The notes under the pieces were generated by a model. The model was not told the origin of the DNA, did no database searches, and worked only from the letters and a program-made list of their open reading frames with translations. Made by a program: the position numbers and the translations under genes. DNA of 53,580 nt from an uncultured Acetobacteraceae bacterium (GTDB taxonomy: Bacteria; Pseudomonadota; Alphaproteobacteria; Acetobacterales; Acetobacteraceae): NCBI GenBank assembly GCA_937873175.1, contig CALMVT010000476.1, positions 1-53,580 on the forward strand, written 5' to 3'. Shown one piece after another: positions 23,439-25,518 of this stretch. Within the stretch, counting starts at the first letter, position 1. Every line of letters starts with the position of its first letter.

Positions 23439-23993
23439 CTAAAGCATCAGCAGCCCACGGCGCAGCCCTTTCGCCACGGCTTCCGCCCGGCTCGCCACGC
23501 CGAGCTTAGCAAATACGGCTTCCAGGTGAAACTTGACGGTGTGCGCGCTGATGCCGAGCTGCCGCGCGACGGTCTTGTTCGTCATGCCCTCGCCGAGCGC
23601 ACGCAGGATTTCCAGTTCCCGCGGGGTCAGCAAGGGGCGCGGCGGCGCAGCCTCGGCGAAGCCCGGCGCGGCCGCTTCCGGCAGACTGACGCGCAGCCCG
23701 GCTGCCACGGCGCGCAGCCCGGCATCGAGTTGCGCCGGCGTCAGCCCCGGGGGCAGCACGCTTGCCTCCTCGTCCTCACCCGCCGCGAGGCGGAGCACCG
23801 GCAAGTTTGCCGCCGTCGCCGCCGGCCCATCGGCCAGCACGACATCTGCCTCGGACATGGCCGCCAACGTGTGGCCAGCTAGGGCGACCCGGGCAGCCAA
23901 GTCCGCCTGGCGCACCGGCGACCGCGCCGCCACTGCAACCTGCAATCCCAGCCGCGTTGCGGCCGGCATCGCAAATGCGGCTGGCGGTTTCAT
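23439..23993 (-). CDS. LuxR/NarL-type transcriptional regulator with degenerate receiver
   Basis: A 184-residue regulator. The C-terminal helix-turn-helix is a clear GerE domain: LLTPRELEILRALGEGMTN then KTVARQLGISAHTVKFHLEA and VFAKLGVASRAEAVAKGL. The N-terminal part (about 15-110) is a short, weak receiver-like fold: EADVVLAD keeps a possible phospho-Asp (D55), but the acidic pair of beta-1 and the conserved Lys are not visible, so phosphorylation is doubtful. The ATG at 23993 overlaps the stop of the upstream HtrA-like gene as ATGA, so the two proteins are made together. The natural inference is that the HtrA-like partner controls this regulator or that both belong to one signal path. Confidence 0.85.
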   Translation of the reverse strand: MKPPAAFAMPAATRLGLQVAVAARSPVRQADLAARVALAGHTLAAMSEADVVLADGPAATAANLPVLRLAAGEDEEASVLPPGLTPAQLDAGLRAVAAGLRVSLPEAAAPGFAEAAPPRPLLTPRELEILRALGEGMTNKTVARQLGISAHTVKFHLEAVFAKLGVASRAEAVAKGLRRGLLML

Positions 23994-24880
23994 GCGGCAG
24001 GCCGCACTGCAGCCAGGACCGGGAGTTCGATCGGCGTTCCGCCCCGCAGCAAGCGCAGCGTCACGTCCATACCGGCGGCATGGCTGCCCAGCGCCCCCGC
24101 CATGGCCCGCATATGGGGTGCAGCCGCGCCGTCCACGGCCAGCAGGATGTCGCCGGGCAGCACGCCTGCCTGCTCGGCCGGACCGAGCGTCGCGAGATTG
24201 ATCACCATCAAGCCCGCGTCGAGGCCGGCCGCAGCCTGCCACCCCGTAGGGATTGACACCGGTTGCAGCCCCAGGCCCAGCCATCCACGCGGAACTTGGC
24301 CGTCCGCCAGCAAAGGCAGCAGCACGCGATCCACCGTCGCAGCTGGGATGACCAGGACGCACCGGCGCGGGCCGAGCGTTGACATGCCGAGGAGGCCGCC
24401 CGCGGCGTCCAGCACCGGCCCGCCCTCGTCCTGTCCCGACAAGCGGGCGTCCAGGCTGATGAGCTGGTCGATCCGGCCACCGTGCAGGCTGTCCCAGGCC
24501 GGGCCGACACGGTGCACCAGGCCCAGCCGGGCCGTCGGGCTGCCGTCCGCCGCGGCGCCCAGCATCAGCGCGAGGCCGCCGCTGTGCGGCGCGACGGGAG
24601 CTGGCAAGGCCGGCCCATCAAACTCCAGCCGCAACACGGCGACGTTGGTGCCGGAGTCGCGACCCGCGAGGTGGGCCTGCACGTGAGAACCATTGGGCAG
24701 CACGGTCGGCACCGCAGTATCCGGGGGCAGGCCCTGCTCGCTTGTCACCAGCACCCCTGGACGCCAAAGCGTCGCTGTGCGCTGCGCGCTGCTTCCGGGA
24801 TAAACGCAGACCAGCCCGGCGCCCGAGCCCGCCACGCGGGAGACGAGCGCATCGGAGAACGTCAGCAACGGGTCAAGCAT
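23990..24880 (-). CDS. HtrA-like trypsin-fold plus PDZ protein without catalytic triad
   Basis: A 296-residue protein with an HtrA/DegP-like trypsin fold (about 20-185) and one PDZ domain (about 200-290: PRGWLGLGLQPV...PAEQAGVLPGDILLAVDG). Aligned by eye with DegP, the catalytic His is Q49 (VLVTSEQG), the Asp is N79 (GTNVAVLRL) and the Ser is E152 (GQDEGGPVLD), so the whole triad is lost while the surrounding fold is kept. No signal peptide is visible, so the protein is probably cytoplasmic. GGAGG precedes the ATG at 24880 at good distance. It is translationally coupled (ATGA) to the LuxR-type regulator. Inference: a pseudo-protease acting as a ligand or peptide-binding sensor or scaffold. 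A residual activity by other residues cannot be excluded. Confidence 0.85.
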   Translation of the reverse strand: MLDPLLTFSDALVSRVAGSGAGLVCVYPGSSAQRTATLWRPGVLVTSEQGLPPDTAVPTVLPNGSHVQAHLAGRDSGTNVAVLRLEFDGPALPAPVAPHSGGLALMLGAAADGSPTARLGLVHRVGPAWDSLHGGRIDQLISLDARLSGQDEGGPVLDAAGGLLGMSTLGPRRCVLVIPAATVDRVLLPLLADGQVPRGWLGLGLQPVSIPTGWQAAAGLDAGLMVINLATLGPAEQAGVLPGDILLAVDGAAAPHMRAMAGALGSHAAGMDVTLRLLRGGTPIELPVLAAVRPAA

Positions 24881-25023
24881 CCAGGCACCTCCACCGCTCC
24901 ATCATATTGCCCTGCGGGGGCCACGCTGCCATAGGACGGATGGGGAGGATGGCCGGAAAGCCCCGCCTTGTTCCCCGCCCCGGCGGCCCGCATATGTCAG
25001 CGTCCTCCATGGAGTGACCACAT

Positions 25024-25518
25024 ATGCGACCGATATGCCTGGCCGTCCTGGCCGGACTGCTCGCGACACCGACCTTGCCGACGGCCCACGCGCTTGCGGC
25101 CGGCGACGATCCCACCCGTATCGGCGATGTCAGCACCACGTTCCGCGTGATCGGCCGCAACGACCGTATCGTGGTGGACCGGTACGACGATCCGAAGGTG
25201 GATGGCATAAGCTGCTACGTTTCCCGCGCCGAGACGGGCGGGATCAAGGGTACGGTCGGCCTCGCCACCGACCCCAGCCGCTTCAGCATCGCATGCCGTG
25301 CCACCGGCGTTATCGCCGTTCCGGACCGGCTGCCGGCGAACGAGGTCGTGTTTGGCGCTTCGGCCAACTGGCTGTTCAAGGAAATCCGCGTGAGCCGGAT
25401 GTGGGACCCGCAAAAGCGCGTGGTGGTGTACCTCGTCTGGTCAACGCAGGCGCTCAGTCCGGGCGGCAGCCCTTACAACAGCGTCAGCGTCGTCCCGGTC
25501 GGCACGCCTGCGCCGTGA
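25024..25518 (+). CDS. creA: CreA family protein
   Basis: A 164-residue exported protein of the CreA family. A signal peptide (MRPICLAVLAGLLATPTLPTAHALA) precedes RIGDVSTTFRVIGRNDRIVVDRYDDPKVDGISCYVSRAETGGIKG, which is the family's defining block, with conserved Cys residues in SCYVSRA and SIACRAT that may form a disulfide. Its role in the periplasm is not known despite the gene name from the E. coli cre locus. The ATG at 25024 has GGAG upstream. It diverges from the HtrA-like/LuxR unit. Confidence 0.9.
   Translation: MRPICLAVLAGLLATPTLPTAHALAAGDDPTRIGDVSTTFRVIGRNDRIVVDRYDDPKVDGISCYVSRAETGGIKGTVGLATDPSRFSIACRATGVIAVPDRLPANEVVFGASANWLFKEIRVSRMWDPQKRVVVYLVWSTQALSPGGSPYNSVSVVPVGTPAP

Follow-up and report, generated by a model that had tools for sequence, protein, structure and literature searches.

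A leaderless HtrA-fold pseudo-protease overlapping a GerE-type regulator that ends in a PDZ-ligand-like tail

The window analyzed here is a 53,580-nucleotide stretch of DNA from an uncultured Acetobacteraceae bacterium (contig CALMVT010000476.1). Two overlapping genes on its reverse strand are considered. Gene A (23990-24880) encodes a leaderless HtrA-fold pseudo-protease of 296 amino acids with one C-terminal PDZ domain, and gene B (23439-23993) encodes a NarL/GerE-type regulator of 184 amino acids. The HtrA family is chiefly known for proteases of the envelope. The original prediction read A as a trypsin fold plus PDZ domain with Q49, N79 and E152 in place of the triad and no visible signal peptide, and B as a GerE-type regulator with a weak receiver whose start overlaps the stop of A in the sequence ATGA. 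These readings are all borne out, the overlap at positions 23990-23993 and the others as described below. What is added here is the C-terminal tail of B, a DNA element upstream of A, and an intact HtrA beside part of the pairs.

Pfam finds Trypsin_2 (E 5e-10) and PDZ_2 (E 9e-10, residues 221-287) in A, and the single-chain AlphaFold2 model of the protein is of high confidence (pLDDT 96.1, pTM 0.90). The closest structures to this model are DegS, AlgW, Deg1 and HtrA (Foldseek E ~1e-21), and HtrA-type structures superpose on it with a VIA Z of ~26-27 across 275-285 residues. From the Pfam matches and the model, the trypsin-fold domain covers approximately residues 1-192 (24305-24880) and the PDZ domain approximately residues 197-293 (24002-24292), the layout of the HtrA family (S1C). 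Alignment to the protease AlgW places Q49 (codon 24734-24736), N79 (24644-24646) and E152 (24425-24427, EGG for SGG) at the positions of the catalytic His, Asp and Ser. A therefore lacks the triad of active HtrA proteases, and it also lacks their export signal or membrane anchor, since the whole open frame has only 303 codons for 296 residues and leaves no room for a leader. Among the relatives of A, 3 of 158 exceed our hydropathy limit for a leader, at Ala-rich stretches, the limit being a coarse one that flags 17 of 34 comparison HtrA. Judged by its sequence, A is a non-catalytic relative of the active HtrA proteases and not one of them; its inactivity and a trimeric state are what the HtrA family leads us to expect. 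The carboxylate-binding loop of the PDZ domain reads R198-GWL-G-L-G-L (24266-24289). The motif R/K-XXX-G-Phi-G-Phi is given as the carboxylate-binding motif of PDZ domains in the excerpted text of PMC11642142, and with Ala allowed for the second Gly (R/K-XXX-G-Phi-[GA]-Phi) it is kept in 128 of the 132 A proteins that are paired with B.

B contains a GerE helix-turn-helix (23475-23633; Pfam GerE, E 1e-19), as NarL/FixJ response regulators do, preceded by a receiver-like domain (residues 15-111, 23661-23951). Pfam Response_reg does not match the B of the window and is below the cut-off or absent in all ten B proteins scanned, yet the N-terminal half of the B model (pLDDT 85.6, pTM 0.54) superposes on the receiver of DesR (5iuj_C; Z 11.3, 95 residues, 17% identity). 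A phosphorylatable receiver has an acidic pair, an Asp and a Lys; in the window, the acidic pair after strand 1, which we take to be part of the phosphorylation site, is missing (AARSP). Some relatives of B (in Microvirga and Bradyrhizobium) retain acidic residues at parts of this site, and the acidic receiver sites differ from clade to clade. The length of B varies from ~124 amino acids in Bradyrhizobium to more than 200 in cyanobacteria, and the N-terminal domain differs too. B shares the receiver-like plus GerE architecture of NarL/FixJ response regulators but departs from them in its short receiver, the absence of the acidic pair in the window, its PDZ-ligand-like tail and its pairing with A. 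As far as its residues tell, the B of the window is not a standard phosphorylated response regulator.

A-type proteins were classified in 213 loci, which gave 187 rows (score at least 180) and 159 after near copies were removed. In 132 of these 159, B follows A on the same strand; counting only loci with at least 900 bases of sequence after A, the figure is 129 of 145. The nearest start of B overlaps the stop of A by four bases in 88 of the 132 pairs. The same overlap recurs in many genera, and chance or artefact was dropped as the source of the pair. The active-site states of the paired A proteins are EDE (43), QNE (36), EDQ (30), EGE (8), EDA (7), HDS (4) and four others. Position 49 is Q or E in 126 of the 132, position 79 is N in the QNE clade and D in most others, and position 152 is E or Q in 120. 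Because the QNE, EDE and EDQ states are conserved across large groups, we do not regard A as a worn-out gene. E152 is not required everywhere, given that the cyanobacterial pairs have A or V at this position, and the idea that it is generally indispensable was dropped.

The original prediction proposed to look for conserved adjacency and conserved loss of the triad in other genomes, and both hold: homologues at the locus mostly lack the triad, with His-Asp-Ser kept by only 4 of the 132 A proteins that have B, and the pair extends far outside this genome, to Acetobacteraceae and several other groups. Among the best 80 of 501 confirmed candidates, several of them metagenome bins, the named carriers of A with B include Acidisphaera, Rhodopila, many Bradyrhizobium, Microvirga, Variovorax, Peristeroidobacter, and the cyanobacteria Nostoc, Calothrix, Scytonema and Brasilonema. 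Within the first 60 genomes (our own included), 8 others encode an A-like protein with E of 1e-47 or better, far above ordinary HtrA. In a sample of the same family, probably Acetobacteraceae by its closest named loci, 64 of 397 genomes have a match of more than 180 bits, B-less ones included. A match passing E 1e-55 is found in 4 of 385 genomes of a class sample and 17 of 398 of a phylum sample (own genome included), so the distribution of A is patchy.

The pair is also encoded on one plasmid each in Bradyrhizobium sp. Ash2021 and in Paraburkholderia sprentiae, annotated there as an S1C family serine protease with a LuxR-type or response regulator. When 9 kb of DNA that includes the pair were compared with plasmids, only short matches came up. 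A second copy of the A-B pair exists in our own genome, seemingly interrupted by contig ends (G000:C233:1-390 and C405:1-1815; L032 and L031). A search of the open-licence literature for the pair or its parts gave no title on the A-B pair among the matches listed, and LuxR has 0 occurrences in the excerpted part of the survey PMC2605481.

For the tree of A, 236 rows were thinned to 102 and a quick method with midpoint rooting was used. Near the base of the A group are intact-triad forms from a Paraburkholderia plasmid, a soil MAG, an Acetothermia MAG and a Synechococcales MAG. Dead A proteins occupy two branches. One is cyanobacterial and stands next to two of the intact-triad forms (support 98); the other is large, with 57 rows (support 96) that are mostly proteobacterial and a single cyanobacterial MAG as the deepest member. 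One odd dead, B-less row falls outside both. The dead label requires three changes on the tree, two of them forced by the starred branches. The root is unsure, because the split of A-type proteins from other HtrA is weak (75). From an intact triad to a pure binding protein, the relatives of A offer a series for comparing what has been retained. The B-less A proteins make up one derived subclade, one sister pair and the odd row. Of 16 strictly B-less forms, 13 have a residue other than E at position 152 (Q in 3), and the DNA element described below is missing from 15; any link between the loss of B and the loss of E152 and the element rests on few events, since B was lost perhaps only twice in the tree. 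A drifting triad (QNQ, RNQ, QNP, RNP, AGA and others) is seen in B-less A proteins at L036, L175, L180-L182, L184-L187 and L189-L192.

B of the window ends in L-M-L-COOH (23442-23450), a predicted PDZ ligand. In the B model these residues form a coil of low confidence (pLDDT ~65) directly after the last helix of the helix-turn-helix. Tail statistics were taken from 129 intact B proteins of the 132, leaving out L078, in which B is out of frame, and L101 and L037, which are cut by contig ends. The final residue is L, V or F in all 129, and 124 finish in the motif [IVL]-x-[LV]-COOH, hydrophobic at position -3, whereas position -2 is free (entropy 2.59 versus 0.63 at -1). The 8 B proteins with three extra tail residues all still finish in the motif, as do all 15 representatives of linked B thinned to less than 70% identity and the B of all four pairs with an intact triad. 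A hydrophobic C-terminal motif of this kind is the form of a class II PDZ ligand and is what would be sought in the partner of a PDZ domain.

The motif is rare in comparable proteins. Among the best-scoring GerE proteins taken as unlinked to A it occurs in 2 of 66. One of the two (L217) turns out to be the A-linked paralogue of our own genome, and no other locus among the 68 controls has an HtrA-like frame; without L217 the control is 1 of 65. The nearest unlinked regulators in the class have it in 2 of 28, so that the two controls together give 3 of 93 unlinked GerE-type regulators. Comparing the 15 of 15 linked representatives with the 28 nearest unlinked ones gives a Fisher p of 9e-10, a value that ignores shared descent. 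These controls replace an earlier one with 11 of 42 hydrophobic ends, in which L031, L064, L078 and L198 were read as A-linked. Taken together, the C-terminus of B suggests a PDZ-ligand-type tail, which would offer a concrete route by which a cytoplasmic PDZ shell controls a regulator; the interpretation in the original prediction is in this sense partly supported.

The hydrophobic end could instead be a packing feature of compact GerE domains, with A acting on B elsewhere or not at all. The tail might indeed pack on B itself, as the GerE structure 1fse superposes on B through its last residue (67 of 67 residues), and shared descent accounts for part of the tail signal. We consider this very improbable, however, because the tail is rare in the nearest unlinked regulators, survives the three-residue shift in every case, and is of low confidence in the model.

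Our preferred reading is that A keeps B bound through a contact of its PDZ domain with the tail, that competing C-termini release B, and that B then controls its own locus; we would give it about an even chance. In this scenario A would be a cytoplasmic HtrA shell that no longer cuts but is still able to grip a C-terminus, and the predicted ligand of its PDZ pocket is the Phi-x-Phi end of B. In NarL/GerE proteins, the last helix of the helix-turn-helix is the dimer helix. Given that the tail directly follows this helix, binding of A should block DNA binding by B. Hydrophobic protein C-termini, for instance those of fragments of misfolded proteins, would compete for the PDZ domain and free B, whose targets would then be the dyad-like element before A and, where present, a divergent HtrA. 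The module consists of an HtrA fold without leader and without catalysis that adjoins a transcription factor. If the reading is right, a PDZ domain gates gene expression through the regulator's own C-terminus, and the sensing of protein damage by C-terminal peptides extends from the envelope to the cytoplasm.

Several known systems share parts of this scheme. The stress-sensing proteins DegS and AlgW resemble A in fold and domain order, with a single PDZ domain. AlgW reads C-terminal peptides with its PDZ domain and stands upstream of a transcription switch. The same is described for DegS in the excerpt of PMC11642142, and this is the role that we propose for A. DegS, however, is anchored in the membrane, has the full triad and acts on the anti-sigma factor RseA, whereas A has neither leader nor triad and is paired with a NarL-type regulator. 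The magnetosome protein MamO is another HtrA-kind protease fold with a degenerate active site and, according to the excerpted part of PMC4794232, acts without cutting; unlike A, it binds metal ions and activates MamE, and that part of the paper mentions no regulator partner. A similar working principle is that of RapF-ComA-PhrF in Bacillus: RapF, itself under the control of a peptide, blocks both the dimerisation of a response regulator and its GerE-type DNA-binding half (PMC3246441, in excerpt). Only the principle is comparable, as A has an HtrA fold and not the repeat fold of Rap proteins. According to the same excerpt, RapF attaches to the DNA-contact surface, and PhrF serves as a dedicated signal that acts at a distance (PMC3246441), whereas the predicted contact between A and B is from the PDZ domain to the C-terminus of B, with direct competition. 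The pair most likely works like a peptide-released anti-activator.

The competing fragments may come from an intact leaderless HtrA like those found beside part of the pairs. DegP prefers to cut between hydrophobic residues, according to the excerpt of PMC11642142, so that an intact cytoplasmic HtrA would yield fragments with hydrophobic ends. In 89 loci the sequence reaches at least 3 kb to either side, and 22 of these have an intact HDS HtrA within that distance: 11 divergent, 10 downstream on the same strand and 1 downstream on the opposite strand. Within 1 kb, a divergent intact HtrA is found beside 21 of the 159 A relatives. In the tree, 12 neighbour HtrA rows group in a clade of their own (support 92), separate from 21 ordinary HtrA. 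The leader hydropathy limit, a coarse test that flags 17 of 34 proteins of the comparison set, is not reached by 37 of 46 neighbour HtrA. An intact HtrA without a visible leader adjoins the second pair of our own genome (L031).

These neighbours also fit a control by proteolysis, in which A is a non-cutting subunit or shield of the intact leaderless HtrA, both PDZ domains bind the tail of B, and A decides whether B is destroyed. Besides the neighbours, this is consistent with the tail already being present in the four pairs whose A has an intact triad, and it has a parallel in the activation of the protease MamE by the pseudo-protease MamO (PMC4794232, in excerpt). On the other hand, 67 of the 89 loci have no intact HtrA neighbour, and within the 22 that do, at least three neighbours (L075, L094 and L104) are of a different kind, with a hydrophobic leader and ~2.4 kb from A, and a fourth (L067) lies 1.7 kb away on the other strand. 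We think proteolytic control of this kind unlikely. Returning to the release of B from A by competing C-termini, a fuller version would be a new type of cytoplasmic peptide sensor. An ex-protease would hold a transcription factor by its PDZ-ligand tail and be displaced by hydrophobic C-termini from cuts that a sister leaderless HtrA makes in damaged proteins; an originally active pair would have lost catalysis two or three times, in proteobacteria and cyanobacteria, with tail and pocket kept. This fuller version is possible, if on balance rather doubtful.

Two further arrangements of HtrA-like genes occur near A. In cyanobacteria and two MAGs there is a three-gene form, with a second, intact HtrA-like gene between A and B (L086, L090, L093, L106, L108, L111, L114 and L118). 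Another HtrA-like protein, which lacks the triad by alignment and starts with MKN.DWEIPPNLQPD, lies near A in some genomes, also where B is missing (L035:3478-4452, L033:6991-7965, L184 and L194).

In several B-linked clades, a dyad-like element lies ~40-130 bases before A, which we read as a putative operator of B. Its form is CGGCC-N4-GGCCG in the QNE clade, where as many as 10 of 34 upstream regions share a dyad, and CTGCC-N6-GGCAG in the Bradyrhizobium-type clade, where as many as 9 of 29 do; in shuffled sequences the maximum is 4. With matrices, the best site lies 40-100 bases before A in 34 of 35 (QNE) and 29 of 29 (Bradyrhizobium-type) training sequences, and the 99% shuffle limit is passed by 30 of 35 and 28 of 29. 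In clades outside the training sets, all 8 EGE loci (a close group) pass with either matrix; of the cyanobacteria, 8 of 8 pass with the Bradyrhizobium matrix and 2 of 8 with the QNE matrix, and of the intact-triad pairs 1 of 4 and 0 of 4, respectively. The element is weak in one B-linked clade, the EDE Acetobacteraceae-type (4 of 20 with the QNE matrix and 9 of 20 with the Bradyrhizobium matrix). The two matrices recognise each other's clades poorly, with 4 of 35 QNE loci passing the Bradyrhizobium matrix and 12 of 29 Bradyrhizobium-type loci passing the QNE matrix. By eye, CTAGCCAT-N4-CTAGG is common to the intact-triad loci L086 and L110 and to cyanobacteria. Where a divergent intact HtrA is present, 8 of the 14 loci scanned have two dyads, 23-28 bases apart. 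The element passes in 1 of the 16 strictly B-less loci; among the 27 loci without a found B, contig-cut ones included, the QNE matrix passes 5 and the Bradyrhizobium matrix 2.

Palindromic matrices trained inside the A coding region score 17.9 and 15.1, versus 16.3 and 21.5 upstream, that is, nearly as high or higher, as related genes share codons. The score alone therefore proves little, and it is the position and the non-coding context that carry the argument. The element could also be part of a promoter for a special sigma factor instead of an operator of B. In the genus of the window, no dyad scores upstream of A. A 20-base block, CCTCCCCATCCGTCCTATGG (24929-24948, reverse strand), has the core CCATCCG and recurs unchanged in three species of the genus, one of which differs in the flanks. 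In the window it scores low, at -1.3 and -1.8 with the two matrices; we suspect that it is a derived form of the dyad found before A elsewhere. The second A copy in our own genome (L031/L032) has a full dyad upstream, with a score of 20.1.

An upstream element, overlapping genes and a kept PDZ loop would also be expected if A were the effector, a holdase-like shell for loose C-termini, and B its transcription switch, sensing through the receiver-like domain. The retention of A in B-less lineages speaks for this alternative as well. It leaves unexplained the PDZ-ligand tail of B, which is rare in other GerE regulators, and we judge it improbable. Under the preferred reading, in which B is held by its tail and released by competing C-termini, the element would be the site at which freed B acts.

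Genome-wide matches to the element bear on the extent of a possible regulon. In eight genomes of one genus other than Bradyrhizobium, the exact dyad occurs once per genome, at the A locus, in 8 of 8. With two mismatches allowed, the 17-base pattern has 46 matches in these genomes versus 20 for the reversed control, and CTTGACCAGATGGCCGG is a recurrent two-mismatch match, in 8 places in six of the eight (G946, G1024, G881, G821, G817 and G924). These sites may be a second target or a conserved coding stretch, and a wider regulon is possible. In eight Bradyrhizobium-like genomes, the 16-base pattern with one mismatch has 25 matches versus 23 for the reversed control; the A locus is matched in 6 of 8, exactly in 4, and one exact match lies elsewhere (G871:C173).

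Clustering of neighbour frames in 32 loci found no third gene common to all, although GC-rich DNA makes such clustering noisy and further shared genes may have gone unseen. It gave one big cluster in which HtrA, B and shadow frames are mixed, a cluster from 11 loci whose frames are unclear, and a third from 5 loci. The member of the third cluster at L038 (4517-6274, reverse strand) is a histidine kinase with HisKA and HATPase_c domains, divergent from A, and related frames occur in 5 of the 32 loci (L034, L038, L039, L066 and L072), which suggests that phosphorylation may add to the control in some lineages. In the window, the gene divergent from A (25024-25518, forward strand) encodes a CreA family protein (Pfam PF05981, E 4e-44).
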